64,000 nt of DNA, from contig JAFQON010000048.1 of the NCBI GenBank assembly GCA_017403185.1, positions 62,001 through 126,000 of the forward strand, given 5' to 3'. Both the position numbers and the translations under genes were made by a program. A model generated the notes under the pieces. It was not told where the DNA came from. It was given only the letters and a program-made list of their open reading frames with translations, and ran no database searches. Positions within the stretch are counted from its first letter, which is position 1. Every line of letters starts with the position of its first letter. Source of the stretch: Clostridia bacterium. Its GTDB lineage: Bacteria > Bacillota > Clostridia > Oscillospirales > Acutalibacteraceae. This document shows, piece after piece, positions 795 to 18,502 of this stretch.

Positions 795-3700
795 TTAATA
801 CCAAAGGAATCCGAGCAGAAGAATACGGATTATCCACTGCCACCAGGCGTAGGAAACCGTGATTTCAAATTCGTCTGTATAGCTGCCGTATGCAACCGTG
901 ATTGTTTTTGTGCCTACAGAATCAGCATTGAATCCGTATGCGGCAAAAGCATTTGTATCGGTTATGATTTTTGATGTGCCGTCGGAATACATTACCTTAA
1001 GTGCAAGGCCGTTTAACTCAAAGCTTTCATCCTTGTATATGTATTTTGTTTTATTCGGAAGAGCTATAATTTTAATGCCTGTAATGGTTGGTGCAGGAGC
1101 TTCGGGCTTTTCAGCTTTTTTATATTCTGCAACAACAGTTATATCGTTCGCCGGCATTGTATCGGGGAGCTCGGGCGCCCAGCGAATAAAATCAAATCCT
1201 TCTTTTTCAGGATTTGCGGGTGATGTGATTGTTGTACCGTATTCGAGGGTAATCGGTGCAATCGCTGTTCCGCCTGCGGTATCAAAGGTGATTGTGTATT
1301 TGTTAACCTGCCATACTGCAGTGAATTCAAGATTTTCAGCGGGCATTGTGTCGGGCACTTCAGGGGTCCAACCGATGAAGGTATAGCCCTCTTTTTCGGG
1401 ATTTGCGGGCGCTGTAATCGCTGCGCCGTATTCTAGGGTAATTGGTGCAATCGCTGTTCCGCCTGCGGTATCAAAGGTGATTGTGTATTTGTTAATCTGC
1501 CATACTGCAGTGAATTCAAGATTTTCAGCAGGCATTGTGTCGGGCACTTCGGGGGTCCAACCGATGAAGGTATAGCCCTCTTTTTCGGGATTTGCAGGCT
1601 TGGTTATCGCTGCCTCTTCGGTTACAGTCTGTTCTGTTGCAACACCGTCAACAAACCATTTAACCGTAAATTTTCTTGGTTTTACGGTCACGGTGCAGGT
1701 ATCGCTGATATCCGTGCTTTTAACGGTTGCAGTTATTGTTGCCGTTCCGGGGCTTACGGCGGTTATAACACCGTTTTCATCAACAACTGCTATGCTTTCA
1801 TCGGACGAAAAATATATAATTTCTGCATTTTCAAAATTTACAAAAGCAGGGGCTGATGAATCATCAATCTCAAGAACAATATCTTTTTGCAGAAAGCTTA
1901 TTGCTTTTGCACAAACCGCATATTCGCTGAAATGATCAGTTTCTATAATAATATAGCCGTTTATGACAGATATTTTATCGTGTGTGAACGGGTCGAAATC
2001 ATTGAAATCCGTTGCATCGGAATGCCAGTGGATAATTGAAAAGCTTTTCAGAAAGTTTTCATCTGCAGGAACGGATATTTTATCTCCGTTATCGGTGAAA
2101 ATGAAGCAATCGTTGATGAAATCAATATTTTTTGCCTCGACGCCGTATTCCCCCGAGCATTCGAGACCTTTTTCAAGGAGTTCAAGAAAAGCATCGGGAG
2201 CTTTGATTTTAACGGTTATATTGTTCCCGGGGATCGGCTGAACCGCATTACCGTTACCGTCTGAAAGTCTGATATCGAGAATGCGGATAGGTGATACCAT
2301 AAGCTTTGTGTAAAATCCGTTCTTCTCATATTTGGAGGTCACGGAATCAAGCTCTGTTGCTTCAAGGTGGATATCGGTGGCAGTGCCGTCAAAATCATCG
2401 TCGGTATAAATAATTATAACTGATTTGTCGGTGTCTTTCAGTGAATAGTGAACGGTGATTTTTGAATAATCTCCATCGTTGATGACAGCTGACCATTCAG
2501 CCTTTGAACCGTCATAATATACATCGCTTATGCTGCTTAAAGAAAAAGCGAAATATTCGATTGAGGTTGTTGCTTCAGGAACATAAATTTCTTCAAGCGT
2601 TGAGGAACTGGTGAACGAATAATTCTTAATGATTTCAACCGTTTCAGGCACATGATACGCTTTTTCACTGCTGCCGAGAGGGTATTGGATAAGAATTGTT
2701 TGTTCCTTGTTAAAAAGTGCACCGTGTTCATCATTTGAATATTCGGTGTTCTGAGGGTCAACATTTATGCGGGTAAGAGCTTGGCAATTTTTGAAGACTT
2801 CGCCTTTTATTTCAGTGACCGTTTTCGGGATTGTGATTTCGGTAAGTGATGAGCATTTTTCAAAAGCATAATAACCGATTGATTGCAGGCCTTCATTCAA
2901 AACAACCTTTTTCAGATTTGCACAGTTGGCAAATGAACACTGGCCTATTCTGTCAATTGTTTCGGGAAAAGTTACACTTTCAATAAAGCTTGCTCCGTAA
3001 AATGCGTTTGATAGTACGGCAGTAAGGTTATCGGGTAACACGAGGTCGGAAGATAATTTTTCTCCGTTGAGATACAGATTATCGGCGTATGCAAGCGGAT
3101 TGCCTGATTCAGCACCAAAAAAGATTTTGCACCAATCCTTGAGTGTTCCGCCGTAATAAACATTTTCAAGAGATTTGCAACCGTAAAAAGCGCTTGCACT
3201 GAGATAACTTGTATAAGTACCAAATGTTATTTCTTTAAGGCTTGAGCATTCCCAGAAAAGGTGTTCTCTTATGCGGTAAAGTTTCGGAGGTATAACAATG
3301 CTTTCAAGGCTTTGGCATTTATTGAAGCAATACATACCCATATCTGTCACACTGTCAGGCAGATCAATTGACTTCAAATTTTTGCATTGGGAGAATGCAC
3401 TTGAGCCAATTGTATGCAGACCGTACTCCAGCTCGATTTCTTCAAGATAAGAGCAACCGCTGAATACTGCTGAGCCGATTTCTTTTACGGTTGAAGCAAT
3501 GCGCGCATTTTTTACCGCAGTAACGGAAAAAGCGTGCTCACCTACAGCAGTTACTCCTTCGCCAACGGTTATCTTGTTGATTTTGTGTTTGTAAGAGGTC
3601 CATGGCTGATCGGTATAGCTTTCGTAGTCTGCCGTAGCACCATCGCCATAAATATAGAGCTCGCCGTCACTGTAAAAGGTCCAGTAGACCTCTCCTGTTG

Positions 3701-3827
3701 TTCCGCTTGCAGTTATTTCTTTTTCTGTTGCGCTTGCATTCGGAAGAACAGCTTCGCAAAAGAAAAAGCTTAAAGCCGAAAGAACGGTTGCAATTATAAT
3801 TGAAATTGTTTTTAGTTTTTTAGTCAT
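795..3827 (-). CDS. Secreted BspA-like leucine-rich-repeat protein with Ig-like and InlB B-repeats (LRR1)
   Basis: This is a 1,010-residue secreted surface protein. The start is the ATG at 3827 with GGAG 11 bases upstream; a GTG 12 bases earlier would overlap that site. Domains in order: signal peptide (~1-35); about a dozen BspA-type LRR_5 units with the CxxLxxIxxPxxVTxIGxxAFxxC pattern (~75-450); a linker region (~450-630); a Big_2-like Ig domain (~635-700); three InlB B-repeat (Flg_new) units containing EGYTFIGWTPEVPDTMP (~705-890); a second Ig-like domain (~910-985); and the tail WWQWIIRILLLGFLWY. BspA-like repeats usually mediate adhesion. The gene begins 16 bases after the stop of the upstream sigma-factor gene and shares its transcript. 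Its tail and last Ig domain match those of LRR2 at 9217-11538. Confidence 0.85.
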   Translation of the reverse strand: MTKKLKTISIIIATVLSALSFFFCEAVLPNASATEKEITASGTTGEVYWTFYSDGELYIYGDGATADYESYTDQPWTSYKHKINKITVGEGVTAVGEHAFSVTAVKNARIASTVKEIGSAVFSGCSYLEEIELEYGLHTIGSSAFSQCKNLKSIDLPDSVTDMGMYCFNKCQSLESIVIPPKLYRIREHLFWECSSLKEITFGTYTSYLSASAFYGCKSLENVYYGGTLKDWCKIFFGAESGNPLAYADNLYLNGEKLSSDLVLPDNLTAVLSNAFYGASFIESVTFPETIDRIGQCSFANCANLKKVVLNEGLQSIGYYAFEKCSSLTEITIPKTVTEIKGEVFKNCQALTRINVDPQNTEYSNDEHGALFNKEQTILIQYPLGSSEKAYHVPETVEIIKNYSFTSSSTLEEIYVPEATTSIEYFAFSLSSISDVYYDGSKAEWSAVINDGDYSKITVHYSLKDTDKSVIIIYTDDDFDGTATDIHLEATELDSVTSKYEKNGFYTKLMVSPIRILDIRLSDGNGNAVQPIPGNNITVKIKAPDAFLELLEKGLECSGEYGVEAKNIDFINDCFIFTDNGDKISVPADENFLKSFSIIHWHSDATDFNDFDPFTHDKISVINGYIIIETDHFSEYAVCAKAISFLQKDIVLEIDDSSAPAFVNFENAEIIYFSSDESIAVVDENGVITAVSPGTATITATVKSTDISDTCTVTVKPRKFTVKWFVDGVATEQTVTEEAAITKPANPEKEGYTFIGWTPEVPDTMPAENLEFTAVWQINKYTITFDTAGGTAIAPITLEYGAAITAPANPEKEGYTFIGWTPEVPDTMPAENLEFTAVWQVNKYTITFDTAGGTAIAPITLEYGTTITSPANPEKEGFDFIRWAPELPDTMPANDITVVAEYKKAEKPEAPAPTITGIKIIALPNKTKYIYKDESFELNGLALKVMYSDGTSKIITDTNAFAAYGFNADSVGTKTITVAYGSYTDEFEITVSYAWWQWIIRILLLGFLWY
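1230..1607 (-). repeat. Two near-identical 189-bp tandem copies of the InlB B-repeat
   Basis: The DNA coding for the second and third Flg_new-like units recurs with a 189-base period (63 codons) and only scattered differences; for example, the block starting near 1338 returns near 1527. The high DNA identity points to recent duplication or gene conversion inside the gene. Confidence 0.75.
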
Positions 3828-3843
3828 AATACTATACACTCCG

Positions 3844-5391
3844 TTAAGAAATTATAAAAGCATCAACACTGTAGCTTTTGCCTGATTCCGCTGTTTCGCT
3901 GATTGAATCTGACATTGCATCAATTCCGAAATCGGATAATAACCTTTGTTCAATAACACTGTCTGATATAGAGTCTCCGGCATAGAATTGCAAGGTTTTT
4001 TGAATTGTTTCTTCCGAGCCTGAGGTATGAAGCGTCACCGTTACCGTTGCAGGTGAAGCCGATTCGGTTGTGGTTGTTGTTGCGGCTTTTGTTGTTGTGG
4101 TTGCAGCCTTTGTGGTGGTTGTGGTCTTTGCAGTTGTTTCAGTAGCTTTAGCGGTCGTTGCTTCCCGTGTGGTGGTTTCCTTTTTTGTGGTTGTCTGCTT
4201 TTGCGTAGTTGTTGGCCTGGTTGTTGCAGTTGTTGTTTGTTTTTTCGTTGTTGTGTTGGTTTTGGTGGTTGATTTGGTTGTGGTTTTATTTGCAGCGGAT
4301 GATTTCTCGGCTTCTTTTGCCTGAGTAACCGTTGTTGATTGTTTTGCTGCCGATGTGAAATTCCTGCTTGTTGAAAGCTCTGCTGTTAAGCTTTCCGTTT
4401 CCGCAACGGCAGGAATAAACACCGTTTCACTCTCAAATCCGTAATCGGGAGCGGTTGTGACTTCTTCGGTGTGAGAGGTTGTTGCAGTTGCGTTTGATTC
4501 GATTTTGTTTTTTACAACAACCGTTGTGCCAATCGCCGAGCCCGTAACAATACCTGCAGCTGCAACGCCTGCAACCACCTTTTGCGCAACACTCATTGCG
4601 GCAACCTTTGCACCTACGCCCGTTGCGGCGGTGGCGGTTGTGCTTGCTGCTGTTGTTGCCGTGGCAGCAGTTGAAACTGCGGCAATTCCCGTTTGTGAAG
4701 CTGCCGATATGCCTGCAAATGCGGCGGTCTGTGAAGCGCTGCCTGCGAAAGAAGCGGCAGCAATATCTGCGGATTTTTTGACGACAGATATAACGAGCCC
4801 GAAAGGCGCAATGCCAAAAAGCGGGAGCCCTTTTTTTGTTCGCTTTTCAGCTTCTTTCTCAACTTCTTTTTTTGCTTTTGAAATTTTGCTTTTTACAGAA
4901 CTTTCAGTGACAGCAAGCTCTTTGGCAATGTCAGCGTAGCTCATATCAAATTTGTATCGCAGAATCAGACAAAGCCGTTTGTCTTCTGAAAGGCATTGAA
5001 GAATCTTATTAATATCTTCAATGCGTTCTTCTGTTTCAAGCGATGCCTCGGGGAGGACTGAAATATCGTCTTCTTCAATATTTTCAATTATATCTGACTG
5101 GTCTTCGGTGAGAACCGAGGGCTTTTTCTTTTTCAGATAGTCACGGCTTTTGTTGGCGGCAATTCTTATGAGCCAGTTTTTTATTTTATCAGGCTCTTTT
5201 AAGGATGATATGTTCTCTATTGCTGCTAAAAAACAATCCTGAACCAAATCGTGAGATTCATCTTTGTTTTGCGTGATCTCGCAAGCAATTGCATATATTT
5301 CGGGTGAGAGCTCAATATAAATTTTTTCAAAAGACGACATATCGCCGTTCTTGGCTTTTTGGGCAAGCTCTGAAAGCTGAAGATTATCCAT
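3844..5391 (-). CDS. ECF-like sigma factor with C-terminal membrane segment, Thr-rich stalk and terminal domain (sigma 1)
   Basis: The 515-residue product starts with an ECF sigma factor: sigma-2 region at ~12-90 (DLVQDCFLAAIENI, then KNWLIRIAANKSRDYL) and sigma-4 HTH at ~130-185 (SYADIAKELAVTESSVKSKI). A normal ECF factor ends near residue 180. Here it continues with an Ala-rich segment and a likely transmembrane helix (KVVAGVAAAGIVTGSAIGTT, ~280-305), a Thr/Lys-rich stalk of about 110 residues, and a ~65-residue C-terminal domain. If the helix spans the membrane, the sigma part is cytoplasmic and the stalk and terminal domain are outside. The LRR1 gene follows directly. A close paralogue lies at 7492-9102. 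No separate anti-sigma gene is present; the extension may do that job (inference). Confidence 0.85.
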   Translation of the reverse strand: MDNLQLSELAQKAKNGDMSSFEKIYIELSPEIYAIACEITQNKDESHDLVQDCFLAAIENISSLKEPDKIKNWLIRIAANKSRDYLKKKKPSVLTEDQSDIIENIEEDDISVLPEASLETEERIEDINKILQCLSEDKRLCLILRYKFDMSYADIAKELAVTESSVKSKISKAKKEVEKEAEKRTKKGLPLFGIAPFGLVISVVKKSADIAAASFAGSASQTAAFAGISAASQTGIAAVSTAATATTAASTTATAATGVGAKVAAMSVAQKVVAGVAAAGIVTGSAIGTTVVVKNKIESNATATTSHTEEVTTAPDYGFESETVFIPAVAETESLTAELSTSRNFTSAAKQSTTVTQAKEAEKSSAANKTTTKSTTKTNTTTKKQTTTATTRPTTTQKQTTTKKETTTREATTAKATETTAKTTTTTKAATTTTKAATTTTTESASPATVTVTLHTSGSEETIQKTLQFYAGDSISDSVIEQRLLSDFGIDAMSDSISETAESGKSYSVDAFIIS

Positions 5392-5424
5392 TCTCCACTT
5401 CCTTTTCGGTTTGTATATACTAAG

Positions 5425-5453
5425 AGTATAACAAAAAATAAAACATATTTCAA
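5425..5453 (-). promoter_or_regulatory. Sigma-A promoter for the sigma 1-LRR1 operon
   Basis: On the minus strand, TTGAAA (5448-5453), a 17-base spacer and TATACT (5425-5430) lie about 35 bases before the start codon at 5391. The -10 sits in the small palindrome TATACTCTTAGTATA. Confidence 0.7.
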
Positions 5454-5564
5454 TTTATATTGACGAAATTAAACAAAGTTTACACAAATTAAATTTTTGT
5501 GAATTTTTAAATTTTGCCGAAACTTTTCTGCATTTAATTCGTCGAAAAAATTTTTTTGAAAATG

Positions 5565-5593
5565 TGCAACTTTTTGAATCTTAAATCGACTTA
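5565..5593 (+). promoter_or_regulatory. Possible ECF-type promoter pointing into the antisense of the XRE gene
   Basis: TGCAAC (5565-5570), 16 bases, then CGACTTA (5587-5593) has the layout of ECF promoters such as those used by B. subtilis SigX/SigM. It follows an A/T block with TTTTTTTGAAAA, like the two better ECF-type sites at 6075 and 9139. No gene on this strand begins close downstream, so it may be a relic or chance. Confidence 0.3.
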
Positions 5594-5610
5594 TATATTA
5601 GGGGGATAAC

Positions 5611-5643
5611 AAAAAACGGCATCCCGATAAACTCGGAATACCG
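5611..5643 (-). terminator. Intrinsic terminator of the XRE regulator gene
   Basis: On the minus strand, GGTATTCCGA pairs with TCGGGATGCC (with two G-U pairs) around a 5-base loop and is followed by GTTTTTTG. It lies directly after the stop codon of the gene at 5651-5893. Confidence 0.75.
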
Positions 5644-5650
5644 CTGGATT

Positions 5651-5893
5651 TTATTCGATTTCCTGTTCAAGGGTCCTGAAAAGCTCGGAATCAAAAAATT
5701 CGTCAAGAGAAATTTCAAGACCGTCGCACAGCATTTTTATTGTTATAACTCCGGGGTTTTTGCTTACTCCGTAGATAATGTTTTTTACCGTTGACGGGGG
5801 AACGGCTGAGATGCTTGCAAGACCGTTTATCGTTATTTTTCGTTCTCTGCAAAGCTGATGAATTCTTTCTGCAATTGCTTCTCTTGTTTTCAT
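5651..5893 (-). CDS. Small XRE-family DNA-binding regulator
   Basis: The 80-residue protein is a single helix-turn-helix of the XRE/Cro type: ERIHQLCRERKITINGLAS, then VPPSTVKNIIYG as the recognition helix region. Its ATG follows GGGGGTC. It is monocistronic, with a terminator right after it and a repeat-rich region in front. It sits between the two divergent sigma/LRR loci and may regulate one or both, or itself; the sequence does not decide which. No effector domain is present. Confidence 0.85.
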   Translation of the reverse strand: MKTREAIAERIHQLCRERKITINGLASISAVPPSTVKNIIYGVSKNPGVITIKMLCDGLEISLDEFFDSELFRTLEQEIE

Positions 5894-5961
5894 ACTGACC
5901 CCCGTTTCATTGGTTATTTCATATTCAGTATAAATTTATAATAAAAAATAATTCGCCCATA

Positions 5962-6011
5962 TATAGACTTTTGTAAATTATTATTATATAATAGTCTTTA
6001 TATAGTCTATA
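5962..6011. promoter_or_regulatory. Cluster of TAGTCT half-sites between the XRE gene and the sigma 2 operon
   Basis: TATAGACT (5962-5969) and AGTCTATA (6004-6011) form an inverted repeat. TAGTCT also recurs at 5992-5997 and 6003-6008, 11 bases apart, about one helical turn. TTCGCCC and GGGCGAA flank the cluster as a second inverted pair. This spacing is typical of an operator region. Binding by the adjacent XRE regulator is an inference. Confidence 0.5.
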
Positions 6012-6074
6012 TTGTTGTTTGAAAAGGCGAAATTAAGGGCGAAAATCAAAAAATAAAATTTTTTTGAAAAACAA

Positions 6075-6103
6075 TGAACCGATATTCATGTTTGCTCGTC
6101 TAA
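6075..6103 (+). promoter_or_regulatory. ECF-type promoter of the sigma 2 operon
   Basis: TGAACC (6075-6080), exactly 16 bases, then CGTCTAA (6097-6103) fits the ECF class (AAC-type -35, CGTC-type -10). The same AATGAACCG and CGTCTAATGGGTGAAA blocks recur with the same spacing at 9139-9167. An A/T-rich stretch lies just upstream of both. The first gene begins about 20 bases downstream. Confidence 0.7.
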
Positions 6104-6124
6104 TGGGTGAAAGGGGGCAAAAGG

Positions 6125-6358
6125 ATGAATAACGGTTCTGTAAGAAAAAGAGTTAATCTTGACGGTTTTCATTCGCTTGATATTTCGGTTTGTGAAGAAA
6201 AGCAAACTGTTGTAACGGAGCTTATAATTCCCGATGAAGAGCCTGTTTTTATTTATGCCGAAAAATTCAATGAGCCCTGCAACTACTTTAAAGAAGGCAT
6301 ACGCAAGGGTATTGAATATCTGAATTCAAACACAAGAAATAAGAGAAAAGGTGGATAA
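6125..6358 (+). CDS. Small protein of unknown function, first gene of the sigma 2 operon
   Basis: I do not recognise this 77-residue protein. It begins with basic residues (MNNGSVRKRVNLDGFHSLDI), has an acidic middle and ends in a basic, probably cytoplasmic tail (NTRNKRKGG). There is no signal peptide or membrane segment. The ATG at 6125 is chosen because AAAGGGGGC lies 8-10 bases before it; an in-frame GTG at 6107 would leave no room for a ribosome site or for the +1 of the ECF-type promoter. The next gene begins 4 bases after its stop, so the two are translationally linked. It could help control the downstream sigma factor (inference). Confidence 0.65.
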   Translation: MNNGSVRKRVNLDGFHSLDISVCEEKQTVVTELIIPDEEPVFIYAEKFNEPCNYFKEGIRKGIEYLNSNTRNKRKGG

Positions 6359-6362
6359 GATT

Positions 6363-7433
6363 ATGGGACTTGTTGAATTGAAATGTAAATCGTGCGGTGC
6401 AAATTTAACCGTGAATGATGATGCGGAAATTTTTACCTGTGATTACTGCGGGGCAACGCTTACACACGAAACGATTCACCATAAGGTTTCGGGCACTGTC
6501 AAGGTTGCGGGAATTGCTGATACGGACAACCTTGTTGAAAGAGCTTCGATTCTGTTAAGAACGGGTGAGTTTGCACGCGCAAGGGAATTTTATGAGCGTG
6601 CTTTGGAGAGCTCTCCAAGACATGCCAAAGCATATTGGGGAATAATGCTGTGTGACAGCAGGGTGAAAAACGCCGAAGCTTTTATTGCTATGGCAGAGGA
6701 TATCACTGATAACCAATATTACAAAATGGCGGTTGAATTTGCTGATTATTCAGACAAATCCTATTACCTTGAAATCGGCGCAAAATCCAAGGAAGCCTTT
6801 AACAATCATCTTATTGAGCTTAAAAACGAGGCTGACAAAAAGCTGAAATCCGGGTATTTCAGCGATGCTCAGGATAAATATAACAGAATTCTGAGCCTCT
6901 CACCGGGGCATTCCGATATTTACTGGGGGCTTTTGCTTTGTCAGTGCAACGCAACAGACGATAACGAGCTTGTGAAAAAAGCGGTTGATGTTACCGAAAT
7001 CCACAACTATAAAATGGCGCTGTCTTACGCTCAGGGTGATAAAAAGCAATACTACATGAATGTCGGCGAAAGAGCCAAGGCGGCAGATAAAAAGAAAACA
7101 CTCCGTCTTAATCTCACAAAATACGCATTGAGAATTCTGCTTTATGTTTCATTTTTGCTCAGTGTGGCGATGTTCGGTATGCTTTTCTATGTTGACGGTT
7201 TGTTCTCGCAGGCAAATCCCGATGATGCTGCGATGATAGACAAGCTGACAACTATGGAAAACACGGTTATCGCAGTGTTTTTTGCATCAAGTATTTTCTC
7301 ATTAATCAGCAACAAAGTTTTGATTTACATAAAAGATATTCTCGGCAATCTTGTAATTGATAAATTCAAATATGTTTTGTGGGTGCTGTTCGGCATTTCG
7401 GCATTTGCTTTTTTCGTTACATTTATTTTCTGA
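6363..7433 (+). CDS. Zinc-ribbon/TPR-like membrane protein in the sigma 2 operon
   Basis: The 356-residue protein opens with a zinc ribbon, CKSCGANL...CDYCGA (two CxxC pairs, ~8-32). Two similar TPR-like halves follow (~65-140 and ~165-240), each with a YWGxxLC block and a later YKMA block. Three hydrophobic helices lie in the last ~110 residues (about 245-268, 300-322, 336-356), so the ribbon and TPRs are probably cytoplasmic and membrane-held. The ATG at 6363 has AAAGGTGG upstream and is preferred to a GTG 12 bases earlier. It is cotranscribed with the small gene before it and the sigma factor 58 bases after it. It may bind or hold the sigma factor at the membrane; this is inferred from position only. 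Confidence 0.75.
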   Translation: MGLVELKCKSCGANLTVNDDAEIFTCDYCGATLTHETIHHKVSGTVKVAGIADTDNLVERASILLRTGEFARAREFYERALESSPRHAKAYWGIMLCDSRVKNAEAFIAMAEDITDNQYYKMAVEFADYSDKSYYLEIGAKSKEAFNNHLIELKNEADKKLKSGYFSDAQDKYNRILSLSPGHSDIYWGLLLCQCNATDDNELVKKAVDVTEIHNYKMALSYAQGDKKQYYMNVGERAKAADKKKTLRLNLTKYALRILLYVSFLLSVAMFGMLFYVDGLFSQANPDDAAMIDKLTTMENTVIAVFFASSIFSLISNKVLIYIKDILGNLVIDKFKYVLWVLFGISAFAFFVTFIF

Positions 7434-7491
7434 TGCAAAAATCAAGAAGGGCTTACACCCTTGAAAAACTCAGCTGACAGACGGTGAATTT

Positions 7492-9102
7492 ATGGAAGTG
7501 AACAAACAAAGAATAGCAGAGCTTGTTACAAGGCTGCAAAGCGGTGATGACTCTGCGTTCAAGGAGCTTTACGGGCTCACAAACGAAAGAGCATATTTTG
7601 TTGCTCTTGAATTTACAAAGAACAAGCAGGATGCTGAGGATATTCTGCAGGAAAGCTACATGAAGGCTCTTTCAAGAATAAAAGAGCTCGATAAACCCGA
7701 GAGCTTCTCAAGCTGGCTCAATCAGATTGTCGCCAACAAGAGCAAGGATTTTCTCAAAAAGAAAAAGCCCATGCTTTTTAACAGCGACGAAGAAGAAACA
7801 AATGTAACGGAGCTTTTGCCCGATGAAAATACCGAATTCAGCCCCGAGGATAATCTTGACCAATCCGAGCTGCAGAAAACGGTTATGGAAGTGCTTGATG
7901 AGCTGAGCGAAGAAAAGCGTGCCTGCGTGCTGATGATGTATTTTGAAGAGCTTAGCGTAGGCGAAATTGCAGAAACTCTTGAAATCCCCGAGGGTACGGT
8001 CAAAACAAGACTGTTCTCCGCCCGAAAGGATTTGAAGGATAAATTTGCCAAGAGGGGAATCACTTCGCTTTACAGCACGGCACCCATCGGAGTTGTTATT
8101 TGGGCAATGCGCAGAATGTCCGAAACGGTGTCAAAAACATTTGTCGGCAGCGGCGCATCGGCAAAGGTGCTTGCAGGTATTACCGTTGCAGGCACGGGCA
8201 CGGCGGCAAGTATTGCGGCGGGCACAACAGCGGCAACCACGGCTGCGACTGCAGCAACAGCAGCGGCAACCGCCACGGGAACGGCAACCGCCACGGGCGT
8301 TGCGGCAAAGATAGCAGCCTTAACGGTTGCGCAGAAGGTTATAGCGGGTGTTTCCGTGGCTGCAGTGGTTGCAGGCTCAACGGCGGGCGTTGTGACGGTG
8401 GTTAATAACAGAGATAAAAACGATGATGTTTCAAGCACCGCTTATACCGAGGAATACACCACGGCTCCGAGTTTTGAAACAACCCTTGCGGTTGAAGCGA
8501 TGGGCACGGTTGAGTTTTCGCAAACAACGGCTGTTACGGAATCTGAAGCTGTAGCCGGCGGCTCAACGACCAAGCCCCGAAGCACATCAGGCGGAAGAAC
8601 CACCTCAAGCGCAACAAAAACCACAACCAAATCCGCAACCCGCACCACAAAACCGACAACAACCAAGAAATCAATCACCACCCGAAAAGCGACTACCACT
8701 AAAAACGCTGCAACAACAAAAGTGACCACCACCAAAAAGCAAACAACAACCGAAAAAGAAACAACCACCAAAAAGGTTACAACAACCAAAGTTACCACAA
8801 CCAAAGCAACAACTACTGAAAAACAGACTGCTACGACCACCAAGGCAGCCACAACAACCACAACCAAAGCAACAACGGCTGCTCCCGCAACTGCGGTTGT
8901 TGATGTTCTTGACGGCAGCGGAGTTGTTGATACGCTGACATTTTCTGTTCCTGCGGGGACAAGCATGACCAAGAGCTATATCATAGGTCTTGTGGAATCC
9001 GAAGGATATACAATATCTAATTACGGTGTTTTCGGTATGAATGTTGATTTGGGCAGCACTGCCGAATCGGGAGAAACATACAGATTTGAAGCAGAGCTTT
9101 AA
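7492..9102 (+). CDS. ECF-like sigma factor with C-terminal membrane segment, Thr-rich stalk and terminal domain (sigma 2)
   Basis: This 536-residue paralogue of sigma 1 has the same plan: sigma-2 region (~12-90, DAEDILQESYMKALSRIKEL, then SWLNQIVANKSKDFLKKKKP), sigma-4 HTH (~130-190, LSVGEIAETLEIPEGTVKTR), a long Ala/Thr-rich segment, a likely membrane helix (KVIAGVSVAAVVAGSTAGVV, ~283-305) followed by charged residues, a Thr/Lys-rich stalk (~335-465) and a ~70-residue end domain sharing TAESGxxY with sigma 1. It is the third gene of the operon driven by the ECF-type promoter at 6075. That promoter recurs before LRR2, suggesting autoregulation plus control of LRR2. It could instead be a truncated-function sensor that no longer binds polymerase, although both sigma regions look intact. 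Confidence 0.85.
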   Translation: MEVNKQRIAELVTRLQSGDDSAFKELYGLTNERAYFVALEFTKNKQDAEDILQESYMKALSRIKELDKPESFSSWLNQIVANKSKDFLKKKKPMLFNSDEEETNVTELLPDENTEFSPEDNLDQSELQKTVMEVLDELSEEKRACVLMMYFEELSVGEIAETLEIPEGTVKTRLFSARKDLKDKFAKRGITSLYSTAPIGVVIWAMRRMSETVSKTFVGSGASAKVLAGITVAGTGTAASIAAGTTAATTAATAATAAATATGTATATGVAAKIAALTVAQKVIAGVSVAAVVAGSTAGVVTVVNNRDKNDDVSSTAYTEEYTTAPSFETTLAVEAMGTVEFSQTTAVTESEAVAGGSTTKPRSTSGGRTTSSATKTTTKSATRTTKPTTTKKSITTRKATTTKNAATTKVTTTKKQTTTEKETTTKKVTTTKVTTTKATTTEKQTATTTKAATTTTTKATTAAPATAVVDVLDGSGVVDTLTFSVPAGTSMTKSYIIGLVESEGYTISNYGVFGMNVDLGSTAESGETYRFEAEL

Positions 9103-9138
9103 AAGTTAAAAAATTTTTTGAAAAAGTTGAAATTTTAA

Positions 9139-9167
9139 TGAACCGTTTTCAGATTCCGGTCGTCTAA
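9139..9167 (+). promoter_or_regulatory. ECF-type promoter of the LRR2 gene
   Basis: TGAACC (9139-9144), 16 bases, CGTCTAA (9161-9167). It is identical to the site at 6075 in both boxes and in the nine bases after the -10, but the spacer differs. The gene starts about 42 bases past the expected +1, after AAAGGAGA. Confidence 0.7.
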
Positions 9168-9216
9168 TGGGTGAAAACGGATGAAAATCCAAAAAATTTA
9201 AAAGGAGACTTAAATC

Positions 9217-11538
9217 ATGGCAAAGAAAAATCTGTTCAAAAAAACACTGGCACTTGCCCTTGCTGCAGTGCTCACCTTCGGCGCAGCACCCCTTGCAGGT
9301 CTGTGTGCAATCGAGCTTCCCTCGCTCGGCTCGCTTACCGCAAGCGCAGCGGAGGAAACCGATTATCTGTACACAACAGCAGATAACCAAATAACAATCA
9401 CAGGTCATAACAATCCTGTCGGCAAATTGGCAATACCCGAAGCTATTAATGATTTGCCGGTAACAAAAATTTCTTCAGGTGCTTTCAATGGCTGTGAAAT
9501 GATTACATCGGTTTCAATTCCTTCAACTGTTTCGACAGTAGAATTAAATGCTTTTGCAAACTGTTCAAGCCTCACTACGGTGACATTTGATCCTCGTTCG
9601 GAAGATCAGATTTTGGAAATCGGAAGCTTTGCTTTCTCAAACTGCACATCACTTTCATCAATTAACCTTGAAGACTCAAATGTCTCAAGTATGGGTGGTA
9701 ATGTTTTCAGAGATTGCTCAGCACTTGAGAAAATCGTAATGCCTGACACACTTACAAATGTTGAAGGCGGCGTTTTCTATCGCTGCACAAGTCTCAGAGA
9801 TGTAACACTCAGTGAAAACATGACAGCATTGAACGACTTTGGCTTCAGACTTGAGGGCTTCTTTTACGGTTGCACTTCTCTTTCTGAAATAGAAATTCCC
9901 GCCAACATTACAACTATAGGCGATGATGCTTTCCGTGACAGTGGTATTCGTAAGGTCACTTTTGCCGAAAACAACAAATTAACAACTGTTTCGTCTTTGG
10001 CATTCTGTAATTCAAAGCTCCAGTCAATAACAATTCCTGCTACCGTTACTCTGATAGATTCACAGGCATTCCAGGATTGCAAAAATCTTTCTTCAGTGAC
10101 ATTCGAAAAGCGCAGTGAAGATCAGGTTCTGCAAATCGGCAGCCATGTTTTTTCAGGCTGTGCTGTTCTTTCATCAATAAACCTTGAAGACTCGAATGTT
10201 ATAAATATGGGCGGTAATGTTTTCAGAAATTGCTCAACGCTTGAGAAAATCGTAATGCCCGACACACTTATTAATGTTGACGGCGGTGTTTTCTATGGTT
10301 GCACAAACCTCAGGGATGTAACGCTCAGCAAAAACATGACAGCGTTGAATTGCTTTGGTGCACGATTGGAAGGATTCTTCTATGAATGTGAAAATCTTAC
10401 CGAAATAACAATTCCTGCAAATGTTAAAATTATTGATCATGATGCTTTTTGTGGCAGCGGTATTCAAAAAATTACTTTTGAAGAAAACAGTAAATTAACA
10501 ACAATTTCATCACAGGCTTTCTGTAATTCAAACCTTCAATCAATTATAATCCCTGCTACGGTTACTTCAATCGAAAGGATAGCTTTTCAGAACACAGATT
10601 TGGAATGGGTTGTTTTTGAGGGTAACAAAAATTTGGAAATTGCCAATCATGTGTTTGACGGTTGCTCAAATCTTACAGATGTCTACTATTCAGGTACAGA
10701 AGAAGAGTGGAACGAAATAATCATAAACGAAAACGGCAACGGTTATTTGTTAAATGCGGCAATGCACTTCAACTTTACAGGTGTACCTCAGGATAAGCTG
10801 AAAAACACCGAATACGGCGTAAGCGCATCTTTTGATTACGGCTGCTATGACGAGGATGTTGAGCTCAGCATCAAGCCCGTCTCAAAAGACCGTGAGCCCG
10901 GCGGTGTTTATATTCCCGATGATATGACTCTTGAAAGAGTAGGTTGCTTTGATATTTCAATTGTTAAAAAAGGCAGCGATGTTCCTGCAGAGAAAAAGAA
11001 TGACGGCATGGTAACAATCAGAATGCCCATCCCCGAAAAATTCAAGGGCCTGAAGGATTTCAGAATCATTCATTATCTCAAGAAGGGCGGATATGACAAT
11101 CTTTCAACCTCCGAAACAAACGAAAAGCTTAAGATTACCGTTGACGGTGATTACCTTGTGTTCAGCGTTTCCGAATTCAGCGATTTTGATGTTTTCACAC
11201 TTGTTCCCGCAGAAAACGATGAACCTTCAACACCTTCCGATAAAAAGGTTGTTTCTGTTTCAATTGCATCGCTTCCTTCAACCACTTCATATACATACAG
11301 AAGCGAAAATGTTGACCTTTCGGGCATGAAGTTAACCGTCAGATATTCCGACGGCACAATCGAAACCGTTACCGATACTTCAAAGATGAAGGTCAGCGGC
11401 TTTAACGGCAAAAAGCTCGGCGACCAGACAGTTACAGTTGAATATGAAGGCGCAACCGCAGAGTTTGAAGTTAATGTTTCATACGCATGGTGGCAGTGGA
11501 TTATCAGAATTCTTCTTCTCGGCTTCCTCTGGTATTAA
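9217..11538 (+). CDS. Secreted BspA-like leucine-rich-repeat protein (LRR2)
   Basis: The 773-residue product has a signal peptide ending in an AxA-like site (~1-45), then a run of BspA-type LRR_5 units (~55-510) with repeating AFxxCxxLxxVTIPxxVxxI patterns, a linker with a ZU5/death-like fold pattern similar to that in LRR1 (~515-665), one Ig-like domain (~675-750) and the tail WWQWIIRILLLGFLWY. The last ~90 residues are homologous to the end of LRR1. LRR1 has extra Big_2 and InlB repeats that are absent here. It lies 114 bases behind sigma 2 but has its own ECF-type promoter, so it is likely a main target of that factor. The cell-surface role (adhesion or sensing) is inferred from the family. 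Confidence 0.85.
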   Translation: MAKKNLFKKTLALALAAVLTFGAAPLAGLCAIELPSLGSLTASAAEETDYLYTTADNQITITGHNNPVGKLAIPEAINDLPVTKISSGAFNGCEMITSVSIPSTVSTVELNAFANCSSLTTVTFDPRSEDQILEIGSFAFSNCTSLSSINLEDSNVSSMGGNVFRDCSALEKIVMPDTLTNVEGGVFYRCTSLRDVTLSENMTALNDFGFRLEGFFYGCTSLSEIEIPANITTIGDDAFRDSGIRKVTFAENNKLTTVSSLAFCNSKLQSITIPATVTLIDSQAFQDCKNLSSVTFEKRSEDQVLQIGSHVFSGCAVLSSINLEDSNVINMGGNVFRNCSTLEKIVMPDTLINVDGGVFYGCTNLRDVTLSKNMTALNCFGARLEGFFYECENLTEITIPANVKIIDHDAFCGSGIQKITFEENSKLTTISSQAFCNSNLQSIIIPATVTSIERIAFQNTDLEWVVFEGNKNLEIANHVFDGCSNLTDVYYSGTEEEWNEIIINENGNGYLLNAAMHFNFTGVPQDKLKNTEYGVSASFDYGCYDEDVELSIKPVSKDREPGGVYIPDDMTLERVGCFDISIVKKGSDVPAEKKNDGMVTIRMPIPEKFKGLKDFRIIHYLKKGGYDNLSTSETNEKLKITVDGDYLVFSVSEFSDFDVFTLVPAENDEPSTPSDKKVVSVSIASLPSTTSYTYRSENVDLSGMKLTVRYSDGTIETVTDTSKMKVSGFNGKKLGDQTVTVEYEGATAEFEVNVSYAWWQWIIRILLLGFLWY
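9575..10605 (+). repeat. 516-bp segmental duplication within LRR2
   Basis: A block of about 172 codons is present twice in tandem. The landmark INLEDSNV is coded near 9660 and again near 10176, and GGNVF, LEKIVMPDTL and MTALN recur in the same order. The copies have diverged at many positions, so this duplication is older than the one in LRR1. Confidence 0.75.
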
Positions 11539-14853: not shown

Positions 14854-16278
14854 ATGGCAAAAAGCATACAGGATATTCTCGCAATTATCAAAGAAAACGA
14901 TATCAAGATGGTTGACTTCAAGATGGTTGACATCAACGGTCAGTACCGTCATGTAACAATCCCCGCAGAGAATTTTTCAGAAGACACAATGAAGAGCGGC
15001 ATCGGCTTTGATGCTTCAAACTACGGCTACGCTGTTGTTGAAAAGAGCGATATGGTGTTTATTCCCGACCCTGACACAGCGGTTATCGACCCCTTCTGTG
15101 AAATTGCAACACTGTCAATGACGGGTAATGCAATGATTATCGATTCACCTGAAAACAGGCCCCTTGCTCAGTATCCCAGAAATATCATCAAGGCTGCTGT
15201 TGAATATATGAAGAACAGCGGTGTTGCCGATGAAATGAAGATTCTTCCCGAGTTTGAATTCTATCTTTTTGACGATGTTACATGGAGTGTTGAAGGCAGA
15301 TATATCGGCGCTACCGTGGATGCAAAGCAGTCATACTGGAATTCGGATGTTGAAGGCAAAGGCGTTGTTGTTGCAAAGCAGAAGAACTACCACATTGCAA
15401 AGCCCTTTGACACATCCTATGAATGCCGCAGCGAAATGTGCATGCACATGAAGGATGCAGGCATTGAAATCAACTATCATCATCCCGAAGTTGCAGCATC
15501 GGGTCAGTATGAAATCGAGCCTCAGCTCGGCGAAGTTGTTCATATGGCGGATGCTTCAATGATGATTAAATATATCATCCATAACACTGCTCTCAAATAC
15601 GGCAAGACCGCAACATTCATGCCCAAGCCTATCTACGGTGAAGCAGGCAGCGGTATGCATGTGCATATGCTCCTTTTCAAGGACGGTGAGCCTGTATTCT
15701 CAGACGATAACGGATATTCACATCTGAGTGAAACAGCGCATTACTTTATGGGCGGTCTTCTTAAGCATATCGGTGCTCTTTGTGCTATCACAAACCCCAG
15801 CACAAACTCCTTCAAGCGCCTTATTCCCGGCTTTGAGGCTCCCGTAACAGTTGGTTACGCAACCTCAAACAGAAGTGCGGTTATCCGTATTCCCGCTTAT
15901 GCAAAGAGCCCTGACAAGCGCAGATTTGAGCTTCGCAACCCCGATGCAACCTGCAACCCCTATTTCTGCTATGCGGCAATCCTTATGGCAGGTCTTGACG
16001 GCGTTAAGAATAAGATTGATCCCCATGCAAACGGTTGGGGTCCCTATGATGTTAACCTCTATCATCTCAGCGATGAGGAGAAGGCCAAGCTTTCACATCT
16101 TCCCACATCTCTTCCCGAAGCACTCGATGCTCTCGAAGCGGATAACGCATTCCTTACCGAAGGCGGCGTATTCCCCGAAGAGCTTATCAAAAACTTCATC
16201 AAAACAAAGCGTGATGAGTGCGCTCAGCTTTCAGCTATTCCTCACCCCGCAGAATTTGATAAATATTATAATCTTTAA
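14854..16278 (+). CDS. glnA: Glutamine synthetase, type I (beta-like)
   Basis: The 474-residue enzyme makes glutamine from glutamate, ammonia and ATP in the cytoplasm. Family motifs are visible: the beta-grasp start (KMVDFKMVDINGQYRHVTIP), EFEFYLFD with a metal-ligand Glu, the ATP/glutamate region GSGMHVHMLLF, NPSTNSFKRL, and RRFELRNPDATCNPY. Its length and C-terminal insertion fit the GSI-beta form. The sequence NLYHL aligns with NLYDL of E. coli GlnA, whose Tyr is adenylylated; here that Tyr is residue 403. Most Firmicutes carry the shorter GSI-alpha form. It is a single gene with its own promoter and terminator; no glnR or glnB is adjacent. Confidence 0.95.
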   Translation: MAKSIQDILAIIKENDIKMVDFKMVDINGQYRHVTIPAENFSEDTMKSGIGFDASNYGYAVVEKSDMVFIPDPDTAVIDPFCEIATLSMTGNAMIIDSPENRPLAQYPRNIIKAAVEYMKNSGVADEMKILPEFEFYLFDDVTWSVEGRYIGATVDAKQSYWNSDVEGKGVVVAKQKNYHIAKPFDTSYECRSEMCMHMKDAGIEINYHHPEVAASGQYEIEPQLGEVVHMADASMMIKYIIHNTALKYGKTATFMPKPIYGEAGSGMHVHMLLFKDGEPVFSDDNGYSHLSETAHYFMGGLLKHIGALCAITNPSTNSFKRLIPGFEAPVTVGYATSNRSAVIRIPAYAKSPDKRRFELRNPDATCNPYFCYAAILMAGLDGVKNKIDPHANGWGPYDVNLYHLSDEEKAKLSHLPTSLPEALDALEADNAFLTEGGVFPEELIKNFIKTKRDECAQLSAIPHPAEFDKYYNL

Positions 16279-16289
16279 TAAGAACATGA

Positions 16290-16326
16290 AACTCTGCAGC
16301 AGAAATGTTGCAGAGTTTTCCTTTTA
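16290..16326 (+). terminator. Intrinsic terminator of glnA
   Basis: AACTCTGCA (16290-16298) pairs with TGCAGAGTT (16309-16317), followed by TTCCTTTT. Confidence 0.85.
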
Positions 16327-16334
16327 AATCGGTC

Positions 16335-16363
16335 TTGATATATTGATTTTTATTTGATATAAT
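16335..16363 (+). promoter_or_regulatory. Sigma-A promoter of the flavodiiron gene
   Basis: TTGATA (16335-16340), 17 bases, TATAAT (16358-16363). Confidence 0.8.
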
Positions 16364-16396
16364 TCAACTGTATACGGATTTTGAAAGGAGATTTTT

Positions 16397-17545
16397 ATGA
16401 TAGGCAAGGATATTAAATATGTAGGTGTTAACGACAGGGAGATTGATTTGTTTGAGGGTCAGTATATTGTGCCCGAAGGCATGGCGTATAACTCGTACAT
16501 TATCGAAGACGAAAAAATTGCGGTTTTTGATACTGTTGATGCTGCATTCGGCGAGGAATGGCTCGGTAACATAAAGAATGCTCTCGGTGACAAGGCCCCT
16601 GATTATCTTATTGTTCAGCATATGGAGCCCGACCATTCCGCAAATATAACAAAATTCACCGAAACATATCCCGATGCCGTTGTTGTTGCAACGGATAAGG
16701 CGTTTGTAATGATGAAAAAATTCTTTGATGCCGATTACGAAGGCAGAAAGCTCGTTGTCAAAGACGGCGACACTCTTTCACTCGGCAATCACGAATTAAC
16801 CTTCTATACTGCACCCATGGTGCATTGGCCCGAGGTTATCATGACCTATGACAGCTATGCAAAGGTGCTTTTCTCGGCGGATGCTTTCGGTAAATTCGGT
16901 GCACTTGATGCGGATGAGGATTGGGCTTGCGAAGCGCGCAGATACTATTTCGGCATAGTCGGTAAATACGGCGTTCAGGTGCAGGCAGTTCTTAAAAAAC
17001 TCGGCGGCCTTGAGGTTGAAATAATCTGTCCTCTTCATGGCCCTGTTCTCAGTGAAAATCTCGGATATTACCTTGATTTATACAACACATGGTCATCATA
17101 CGGCGTTGAAAGCGAAGGTGTTGTTATATGTTATACCTCTGTTTACGGCAACACAAAAAAAGCTGTTGAGCTTCTTGCCGAGGAGCTTGAAGCAAACGGT
17201 TGCCCCAAGGTGGCGGTGAATGACCTTGCACGCTGTGATATGGCTGAGGCGGTTGAGGATGCCTTCCGTTACGGCAAAATCGTTCTTGCATCAACCACCT
17301 ATAACGGCGATATCTTCCCGTTTATGAGAGAATTCATAAATGAGCTTACTGAGAGAAATTATCAGAACCGCACCGTCGGCATTGTTGAAAACGGTACATG
17401 GGCACCCCTTGTTGCAAAGAAGATAGCAAAAATGCTTGAAAACAGTAAGGGTATAGTCTATACTCAGAATACCGTTACAATACACTCGGGTGTGAAAGAA
17501 GAAAATGTTGAGCAGATCAAGCTTCTTGCAAAGGAGCTGGCATGA
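16397..17545 (+). CDS. Flavodiiron protein (FprA-type O2/NO reductase)
   Basis: The 382-residue protein has a metallo-beta-lactamase-like diiron domain (~1-245) and a C-terminal flavodoxin domain (~250-382). Diiron ligands are visible as HMEPDH (HxExDH), a His in MVHWPE, an Asp in FSADAFG and a His in CPLHGP. The flavodoxin FMN loop reads YTSVYGNTKKA. These enzymes reduce O2 to water, or NO to N2O, using electrons from rubredoxin or F420-type donors, and protect anaerobes. No rubredoxin gene is adjacent and no rubredoxin domain is fused. The ATG follows AAAGGAG. The GH16 gene begins 36 bases after the stop and may be read from the same promoter. Confidence 0.93.
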   Translation: MIGKDIKYVGVNDREIDLFEGQYIVPEGMAYNSYIIEDEKIAVFDTVDAAFGEEWLGNIKNALGDKAPDYLIVQHMEPDHSANITKFTETYPDAVVVATDKAFVMMKKFFDADYEGRKLVVKDGDTLSLGNHELTFYTAPMVHWPEVIMTYDSYAKVLFSADAFGKFGALDADEDWACEARRYYFGIVGKYGVQVQAVLKKLGGLEVEIICPLHGPVLSENLGYYLDLYNTWSSYGVESEGVVICYTSVYGNTKKAVELLAEELEANGCPKVAVNDLARCDMAEAVEDAFRYGKIVLASTTYNGDIFPFMREFINELTERNYQNRTVGIVENGTWAPLVAKKIAKMLENSKGIVYTQNTVTIHSGVKEENVEQIKLLAKELA

Positions 17546-17581
17546 TTCTGCTGAGTTGAATTGAAAAAAGGAGCGGTGCTT

Positions 17582-18502
17582 ATGTTCAGCGTTGTGTTAA
17601 AGTCAATTCTGAAAATATTTATAGCAATTCTTATGGCGATTAATCCTCAGCTTCCCGGTATGCTTGATCTCGGCAAAATTCCTCAGGGCAAAACCATTGA
17701 CCTTGAAAACGATTTTGTTCTCAAGTGGGAGGATGATTTTAACGGCACTGAGCTTGATAAAAGCAAATGGGGTTATTCGTGGTGGATAACAGAGCGTAAA
17801 GGCGGTTATTGGCATGAGGATATGGTGAGCGTCAAAGACGGTAACCTTGTTATCAGAGCCGAATACCTTGAAGAACCTCTGCCAAATTATTATGAGGATT
17901 CGGGTGTCGATATGCCCGAATACAAGCCGGGCTGGTATACGGGTAAGGTCACAACCCGTGGTAAATATGAGCAGAAATACGGTTATTTTGAGGTGCGCTG
18001 TATTCTGCCTAAGGCAACGGGAATGTGGAGTGCCTTCTGGATGATGAACGAAGGTGTTTACAATGTCAATAATTCGGGCGAAGACGGCACGGAGATTGAT
18101 GTTTTTGAGTCCTTCTATTATAAGGATAATTGGTGGGGGAACGATGCAATCTCAACAGGCATCCACTATGACGGTTACGGTGAAGGCCATCACGGCGAAG
18201 CTGTGGGCAAAATGTTCATTGAAAACAATCCTTATGAAGAGTATAACACTTATGGCGTTGAGTGGAATGAGAATGAGTATATCTTCTACATAAACGGTGT
18301 TGAAACGGGCAGAACCTCAGCGGGCGGTGTGTCAAAGAACCCCGAATATCTTCTGCTTTCCTGCGAATTTGCAGGCGAAAACGGTGTTCAGAGCTCAGAC
18401 AGACACGGTACGGGCGAAATTTGGAAAACACCCAAAGAAAACTGGCCTGCCGAGTTCAAGGTGGACTATGTTAGATGCTATCAATATAAAGAATTAGCAT
18501 AA
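17582..18502 (+). CDS. Secreted glycoside hydrolase family 16 (endo-beta-glucanase-like)
   Basis: The 306-residue enzyme has an N-terminal hydrophobic signal segment (~1-30) and a GH16 jelly-roll domain (~45-305). The catalytic motif EIDVFE gives nucleophile E171, helper D173 and acid/base E176, in the beta-bulge form ExDxxE of laminarinases and other 1,3-glucanases. Nearby aromatic residues (WSAFWMM, GVEWNENEYIFYING) fit the family. The ATG at 17582 is preferred because AAGGAG lies at 17567-17572; a TTG at 17561 would precede that site. It probably cuts beta-glucans outside the cell; the exact linkage cannot be read from sequence. A strong terminator follows. Confidence 0.9.
   Translation: MFSVVLKSILKIFIAILMAINPQLPGMLDLGKIPQGKTIDLENDFVLKWEDDFNGTELDKSKWGYSWWITERKGGYWHEDMVSVKDGNLVIRAEYLEEPLPNYYEDSGVDMPEYKPGWYTGKVTTRGKYEQKYGYFEVRCILPKATGMWSAFWMMNEGVYNVNNSGEDGTEIDVFESFYYKDNWWGNDAISTGIHYDGYGEGHHGEAVGKMFIENNPYEEYNTYGVEWNENEYIFYINGVETGRTSAGGVSKNPEYLLLSCEFAGENGVQSSDRHGTGEIWKTPKENWPAEFKVDYVRCYQYKELA

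Follow-up and report, generated by a model that had tools for sequence, protein, structure and literature searches.

ECF systems are usually read as a soluble sigma factor working with a membrane anti-sigma protein. The window analyzed here, a stretch of 64,000 nucleotides of DNA from a Clostridia bacterium, contains two divergent loci, A and B, in each of which the sigma gene is extended by a putative membrane helix and an outside domain and stands next to a gene for an LRR protein. Could such a sigma factor be its own receptor, and what would the LRR protein contribute? With moderate confidence, we propose that these proteins belong to a family of ECF sigma factors that are tethered to the membrane and serve as surface receptors themselves. 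At the level of sequence, the architecture, the gene linkage, the fusions and the concordance between sigma factors and promoters could be demonstrated. The features of the two loci are collected in Table 1.

Table 1. Features of the two sigma loci (positions refer to the window)
Feature	Position	Strand	Basis or remarks
LRR protein A, 1014 aa	795..3839	-	Signal-like N terminus (by eye), BspA-type LRR_5, Big_2, three List_Bact repeats, Big_3, hydrophobic tail
Hydrophobic C-terminal tail of LRR protein A (AWWQWIIRILLLGFLWY)	798..848	-	Comparison with LRR protein B and tail-pattern search in the own genome
Tethered ECF sigma A, 515 aa	3844..5391	-	Pfam domains
End domain of sigma A (TAESGKSY), predicted outside	3847..4050	-	End-domain profile match, 4e-17
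Thr-rich stalk of sigma A	4051..4512	-	56 Thr among 154 residues
Predicted transmembrane helix of sigma A	4513..4578	-	Hydropathy
Region 4 of sigma A	4864..5016	-	Pfam
Region 2 of sigma A	5122..5313	-	Pfam
Candidate housekeeping-type promoter of sigma A	5425..5453	-	TTGAAA-17-TATACT, TG before; conservation of upstream region
ECF-type promoter, class alpha, 5' of the small protein/sigma B operon	6077..6111	+	Pattern match
Conserved small protein of 77 aa (ATG at 6125)	6125..6358	+	Companion of tethered sigma genes; predicted four strands and helix
Zn-ribbon/TPR protein with hydrophobic C-terminal segments, member of the sigma B operon	6351..7433	+	Pfam
Tethered ECF sigma B, 536 aa	7492..9102	+	Pfam domains
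Region 2 of sigma B	7588..7767	+	Pfam
Region 4 of sigma B	7882..8034	+	Pfam
Predicted transmembrane helix of sigma B	8338..8403	+	Hydropathy
Thr-rich stalk of sigma B	8404..8886	+	61 Thr among 161 residues
End domain of sigma B, predicted ubiquitin-like beta-grasp	8887..9099	+	Structure prediction, pLDDT 91.2
ECF-type promoter, class alpha, 5' of LRR protein B	9141..9175	+	Pattern match
LRR protein B, 773 aa	9217..11538	+	LRR_5, Big_3, hydrophobic tail
Hydrophobic C-terminal tail of LRR protein B	11485..11535	+	Tail pattern

The N-terminal parts of both proteins are ECF sigma factors. Pfam matched Sigma70_r2 and Sigma70_r4_2 in sigma A (3.5e-12 and 6.8e-13) and in sigma B (1.9e-11 and 8.8e-15), with regions 2 and 4 of both above the curated cut-offs, and the TIGR02937 model of the ECF superfamily gave 99.9 bits for sigma B and 92.4 bits for sigma A against a cut-off of 42.9. 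The nearest solved chain to residues 1-190 of sigma B was SigW (1.2e-23). After region 4, the order is the same in both: a short hydrophobic segment (GLPLFGIAPFGLVI in sigma A, SLYSTAPIGVVIWA in sigma B), a stretch rich in Ala and Thr, the strongest candidate for a membrane helix (residues 272-293 in sigma A and 283-304 in sigma B), the stalk with 36-38% Thr, and an end domain of about 70 residues whose motif in sigma B reads TAESGETY. A profile made from 29 end domains, those of sigma A and sigma B among them, matched that of sigma B at 8.9e-22. The domain order that the earlier note had read in both genes, including the homologous TAESG end domain, is borne out, and its coordinates for the two sigma genes and the two LRR genes were correct. 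The sigma domains of A and B share only 59 identical columns out of 194, so the two are old paralogues. Pfam detected no zinc-finger or other anti-sigma domain in sigma A or sigma B (zinc finger at E up to 1), and the HX3CX2C zinc-finger anti-sigma motif was found in 0 of 58 tethered sigma factors.

As had been claimed, each sigma gene precedes a gene for a BspA-type LRR protein, and the gene for LRR protein A starts 4 bases after sigma A; Pfam matched a Big_3 domain in both LRR proteins. By sequence, the LRR partners are ordinary members of the BspA type (PF13306); the LRR_5 match was 2.4e-75 (250.9 bits) for LRR protein A and 3.3e-85 (282.8 bits) for LRR protein B, the gathering score being 27.7. 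What distinguishes them from other BspA-type LRR surface proteins is the tail WWQWIIRILLLGFLWY. The last Ig domain and the tail are indeed common to both LRR proteins: 48 of their final 85 residues are identical, including all of the final 20. When the own genome was searched with the tail pattern, all five exact matches lay at tethered-sigma loci; a sixth, with three mismatches, on contig C26 is no more than the single match obtained in the control. Among 28 partners scanned with Pfam, 23 contained LRR_5. In the partners at L066, L068, L070, L071 and L087-L090, which belong to other sigma clades, the place of WWQWIIRILLLGFLWY is taken by a second kind of C-terminal end that resembles RIIAFFKxLFGxLP.

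We examined how far this arrangement recurs. The own genome (2.4 Mb, 50 contigs, 80% complete) has 25 Sigma70_r2 matches, and the long ones include five tethered sigma factors that have a Thr-rich stalk, namely sigma A, sigma B and one each on C2, C9 and C25. The next gene encodes an LRR protein for four of the five; after the C9 sigma gene comes a List_Bact-repeat/DUF6273 protein with the same tail, followed by an LRR protein. A sigma search at E 1e-40 in 60 genomes (the own genome, 36 of the genus and 23 of the order) returned 60 matches spread over 23 genomes, all but one within the own genus, and the 54 matches outside the own genome were read. With the end-domain profile, 37 matches were found in 45 genomes of the genus, 36 of them on tethered sigma factors and one on a fragment at a contig edge. 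The gene after the end-domain sigma encodes an LRR protein in 27 of the 37 cases and a tail-sharing partner in 3 more; in 5 of the 37, the next gene is neither. Linkage to LRR genes in other genomes was one of the refuting tests set in the earlier note, and it held. In G028 and G060, the end-domain sigma genes precede a 429-aa non-LRR protein.

At least 12 of 390 other genomes of the class match the tethered sigma (E 1e-38), and several of these class-level matches carry long C-terminal parts of other kinds (7 of the 13 loci were covered). The 19 closest named relatives (L010-L028) are assigned to Clostridia, Clostridiales or Oscillospiraceae, and 9 further loci are weak matches. These named relatives are metagenome assemblies, and the sigma frame of L079 is split ahead of its LRR part, either of which could be taken as a sign of an assembly artefact or decaying genes; intact frames and the same gene order in many separate genomes already contradict this explanation, and its probability is negligible. 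Other families of the class also have tethered ECF sigma factors, about 700-790 aa long and with outside parts of other kinds (L130, L133, L136, L140 and L141); in some of them, a similar hydrophobic segment containing proline follows region 4. The tethered design therefore seems wider than the genus. A further group of about 730-760 aa (L002 at 7498-9753, L053, L054, L058, L059, L061 and L064) has no Thr stalk, and the two members scanned, L002 and L059, gave no Pfam family in the outside part. In this group, the next same-strand ORF encodes a GH5-type glycosidase in L002, L053 and L061 and a 262-aa protein in L064; none was found in L054, L058 and L059.

Relatives of sigma A and sigma B carry other domains in the place of the end domain. 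The C25 sigma (L005) itself ends in LRR_5 (1.3e-33, Pfam). A regex found LRR units on the sigma chain in 15 of 60 typed rows, L079 with its broken frame among them, and Pfam added L044; in all six chains scanned (L005, L044, L065, L082, L025 and L027), LRR_5 was confirmed by Pfam. The sigma part of L044 falls inside the sigma B clade, and its upstream region has the promoter class of sigma B (alpha, see below) and the small protein, with an outside part that is LRR_5 (2e-13). Downstream of L044, no same-strand ORF of at least 200 aa starts within 800 nt; a 193-aa non-LRR ORF does start there. Among the regex-typed LRR-fused sigma genes, an LRR gene comes next in only 8 of 15. In G031, three sigma factors that are neighbors on the tree (99/88 and 100/98) carry an LRR part (L065), a CAP domain (L067) and a beta-grasp end domain (L072). 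The four CAP-type sigma genes (L063, L067, L069 and L075) are all directly followed by a gene for a papain-family protease. From the fusions and from the swaps among LRR, CAP and beta-grasp, it follows that outside parts can be exchanged and that their type tends to match the partner. The fusion of LRR units to the sigma chain also lends support to an outside task that the sigma factor and the LRR protein would share. Upstream of the sigma genes of L067, L069 and L075, a leader was noticed by eye that contains a recurrent GGATTGGCTTA element and a hairpin-like stretch with a run of T at its end; Rfam gave no match in it. On C25, L005 also includes a conventional ECF sigma gene followed by a 323-aa Big_3 protein and then large LRR proteins (15489-18500). 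The Big_3 protein is possibly an anti-sigma factor with an outside Ig domain, and this locus may represent the fused system in split form.

These swaps bear on the orientation of the chain. The Kyte-Doolittle maximum of the helix is modest, 1.72 in sigma A and 1.86 in sigma B, so that membrane insertion is likely but falls short of proof. In 56 of 58 longer relatives (two short matches were excluded), a hydrophobic segment of at least 1.6 lies ahead of the outside part, the helix hydropathy being 1.6-2.15; in L045 and L049, close relatives of sigma A, it is below 1.6. Some members have further hydrophobic stretches beyond region 4, so that their chains may cross the membrane more than once. 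The modest hydropathy and the several hydrophobic stretches in some members would suit a C-terminal half that stays in the cytoplasm, Thr-rich part and end domain included, with the hydrophobic stretch only membrane associated. LRR_5 and CAP domains are typical of secreted proteins, and Thr-rich stalks are typical of surfaces. Since LRR_5 and CAP stand in for the end domain in close relatives, we consider a cytoplasmic C-terminal half very improbable. Far better in keeping with the domain content, and in our judgment very likely, is a tethered chain with its end domain outside; the sigma part would sit inside, and one helix would cross the membrane to the Thr-rich stalk that bears the end domain.

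A different question is whether the sigma factor and the LRR protein act on each other. They might merely be coregulated, with the outside domain sensing wall glycan, mucin or plant fiber and the LRR adhesin being an output that takes no part in gating. One operon and a common promoter would then account for the linkage without any contact, and such a scheme would also accommodate the diversity of the outside domains (beta-grasp, LRR, CAP and unassigned) and the 429-aa protein found next to the end-domain sigma genes of G028 and G060. It is less easily reconciled with the LRR units fused onto the sigma chain, with partners whose type follows that of the end domain, as the CAP-papain pairs do, or with the identical 20-residue end kept by the partners of two sigma factors as diverged as A and B. 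Mere coregulation is, in our estimate, unlikely, and we continue to favor sigma factors that act as their own receptors.

A small protein of about 80 aa accompanies many of these sigma genes. Its three copies in the own genome are all upstream of tethered sigma genes (B, C9 and C2). In the genus, 22 copies were found in 13 of 45 genomes, and 20 of the 22 are upstream of a tethered sigma gene, at distances from an overlap to about 1.7 kb, with genes between. The two orphan copies have no sigma gene downstream, one in G032:C71 (about 2.6 kb to the contig end) and one in G063:C5 (5.3 kb read). The invariant positions include YAE, PC and a Tyr of the last helix. In the predicted structure (mean pLDDT, 83.6), a long helix accompanies four strands, and no clear structural relative was found; neither Pfam nor NCBIfam matched the protein. 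The gene next to the tethered sigma genes mostly encodes an LRR or other secreted protein, and the small upstream protein without a family match may be a soluble anti-sigma factor. We tentatively regard it as a soluble regulator of the sigma factor, an assignment somewhat more doubtful than not, and it could act as an intracellular brake.

An ECF-type promoter, [AG]ACC-N16-CGT[CA]-N6-[AG]TGAA, was found upstream of sigma loci, mostly 41-69 nt 5' of the first gene. A looser regex, written after inspection of the upstream regions, matched 22 of 60 loci compared with 0.8% of mononucleotide shuffles. Within the window, only two sites matched without mismatch, one before the sigma B operon and the other before LRR protein B; at up to two mismatches, there were 9 sites versus 6.2 expected, which is no excess. 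The strict class alpha pattern (AACC-N16-CGTCTAANNGGTGAA) was matched 17 times, in 9 of 45 genomes, with 0 for the reversed-pattern control, and all 17 sites lie 30-94 nt before an ORF: small proteins in 9 cases, Zn-ribbon/TPR proteins in 2 (the counterparts in G028 and G060, which have their own alpha promoter), LRR proteins in 2 (LRR protein B and one on C29 of the own genome), a 164-aa protein in 2, and single proteins of 433 aa and 477 aa. Except for the C29 site, alpha sites are confined to the sigma factor's own locus. In a tree of the sigma parts only (190 aa), the nine sigma factors with an alpha promoter form one clade (96/98). Among 37 genomes tested both ways, the 8 with alpha sites are the same 8 that have alpha-clade sigma factors, and 29 have neither (Fisher 2.6e-8, although the genomes are related and do not amount to 37 independent trials). 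Of the 45 genomes, 5 have a class gamma site, a single one each, and all five sites precede the small protein; a gamma-clade sigma gene comes next in four, and the fifth is the orphan small-protein gene of G063. Looser gamma-like forms missed by the gamma pattern are present in G008, G034 and G062 and at the C2 locus of the own genome. If each sigma factor reads its own promoter, promoter class should differ between sigma clades, as is observed here. Judging from these sequence patterns, we are highly confident that the alpha promoter would be read by the clade of sigma B, and the main output of sigma B is probably the LRR protein.

Alternatively, these promoters could be read by another, conventional ECF sigma factor, whose targets would include the tethered-sigma operons. 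Class beta gives this possibility some weight: it precedes the C9 operon and many other genes of the own genome, with 48 sites at up to one mismatch versus 14 in the control, and by eye the genes behind it encode secreted and membrane proteins, an ABC ATPase and the conventional ECF sigma factor on C20. Since beta sites lie 5' of many genes, including a conventional ECF gene, some tethered sigma factors may be targets rather than drivers. The beta sites are likely a large envelope regulon, and the class may serve a general envelope sigma factor. The gamma site of G063, with no sigma gene in about 5.3 kb, and a related promoter at the orphan small-protein gene of G032:C71 would also fit. Against such an outside reader stand the restriction of alpha sites, among the 37 genomes tested both ways, to genomes with the alpha clade, their confinement to the sigma factor's own locus save the one on C29, and the single gamma site per genome. 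We hold it to be improbable and keep to promoters read by the tethered sigma factors themselves. The beta-class promoter GACCAAAC..TCGTCTTATAGGTGAA was seen on C1, C2, C4, C12, C15, C25, C36 and C40 of the own genome.

Locus A differs from locus B. No alpha-class promoter was found at the sigma A locus. Its housekeeping-type promoter was assigned from conservation across 6 aligned upstream regions and not from a consensus scan, which found no more sites than in shuffles. Therefore, the link from sigma factor to LRR gene proposed in the earlier note is supported for B, by the alpha sites before both the operon and LRR protein B together with the clade concordance, and falls short for A; likewise, its self-contained circuit from surface to gene finds support for B and not for A, with its housekeeping-like promoter. 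Between the two loci lies an 80-aa HTH gene of the Cro/C1 type (5651-5893, minus strand). Putative operators of this gene, TATATAGACT (5960) and TATATAGTCTATAT (5999, nearly palindromic), occupy the region 5960-6012 between the HTH and small-protein genes. An HTH gene is likewise found between paired loci in G020 (L039/L049).

How might such a system work? The stalk would present a small beta-grasp, LRR or CAP domain as outside cargo, and the chain would most likely be held inactive at the membrane. That the outside domain gates the sigma factor seems to us rather likely. The secreted LRR protein encoded with it, or the ligand of that protein, would engage the end domain; for a part of the LRR protein itself in gating, we put the chances slightly short of even. 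Release of the sigma part by intramembrane proteolysis, with a cut in the Gly/Ala-rich helix, is in our view evenly balanced. A site-2 protease is present, but it is also found in 14 of 14 control genomes and thus says little about this step. Once freed, the sigma factor would transcribe the small protein, itself and the LRR protein from the private promoter, and this self-amplifying positive loop would set the amount of one surface protein. We speculate that the identical tail keeps the LRR partner in the membrane beside the sigma helix. Locus A would depart from this scheme in that its sigma gene appears to be under a housekeeping-type promoter. In its most complete form, the model envisages one-protein receptors in which swappable outside domains (beta-grasp, LRR, CAP or other) on a common ECF core each have a matched secreted partner, with promoters specific to the clade and almost only at the own locus and with a dedicated small cytoplasmic companion. 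The partner would feed back on its own sigma factor, so that each surface protein would have a private switch, perhaps a bistable one, and the identical tail of the LRR partners would associate with the sigma helix within the membrane. Taken as a whole, this extended model is tentative, and we would expect it to be wrong in some part.

The arrangement places sigma factor and sensor on one chain, with exchangeable outside domains, distinct promoters and matched partners supplied by nature. For gut Clostridia so far known from assemblies, it suggests a path, open to direct test, that leads from a surface adhesin back to the gene encoding it; it also predicts regulons from sequence and may provide ready-made orthogonal sigma-promoter pairs for laboratory use.

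The earlier note had offered these loci as its best candidate for an undescribed system. This holds only for a variant, since tethered ECF factors with outside domains are in print. The parts of the published accounts considered here describe ECF52 (SCO4117 of Streptomyces coelicolor) as exclusive to Actinobacteria, with a zinc-finger domain, a proline-rich stretch and a carbohydrate-binding domain, and propose autoregulation and excision from the membrane (PMC5826349). Like ECF52, the proteins analyzed here combine an ECF sigma factor, in their case with a predicted transmembrane part, a low-complexity stretch and a predicted outside domain on one chain. Unlike ECF52 as portrayed there, they come from Clostridia, lack the zinc finger (Pfam in A and B; HX3CX2C in none of the 58), have a Thr-rich rather than a proline-rich stalk, and end in a domain predicted to be beta-grasp-like, with no carbohydrate-binding Pfam match in A or B; the LRR and CAP outside variants, the LRR partner gene and the small companion protein are further differences. 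ECF48, ECF53 and IutY are also membrane-tethered ECF factors (PMC8999054). In the portion of that source consulted, IutY is a sigma factor with an anti-sigma-like extension that responds to the xenosiderophore aerobactin and is activated by Prc and RseP. It resembles the present proteins, as pictured here, in being a membrane-held ECF sigma with a regulatory part, and its release by proteolysis, here only proposed, is described; an LRR partner and a private surface-protein operon go without mention for IutY in that portion of the source (PMC8999054). In cellulolytic clostridia, the excerpts consulted describe several paralogous SigI/RsgI pairs in which a membrane sensor switches the sigma factor, with cleavage by RseP (PMC12203970, PMC6056542). 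There the sensor is a separate anti-sigma protein, whereas here sensor and sigma factor share one chain. A literature search, mostly outside subscription journals, found no report of such a link between a sigma factor and LRR proteins. As far as the literature compared goes, the apparently new features are the occurrence in Clostridia, the lack of a zinc finger, the Thr-rich stalk with exchangeable domains, the partner gene, the small companion and the private promoters.
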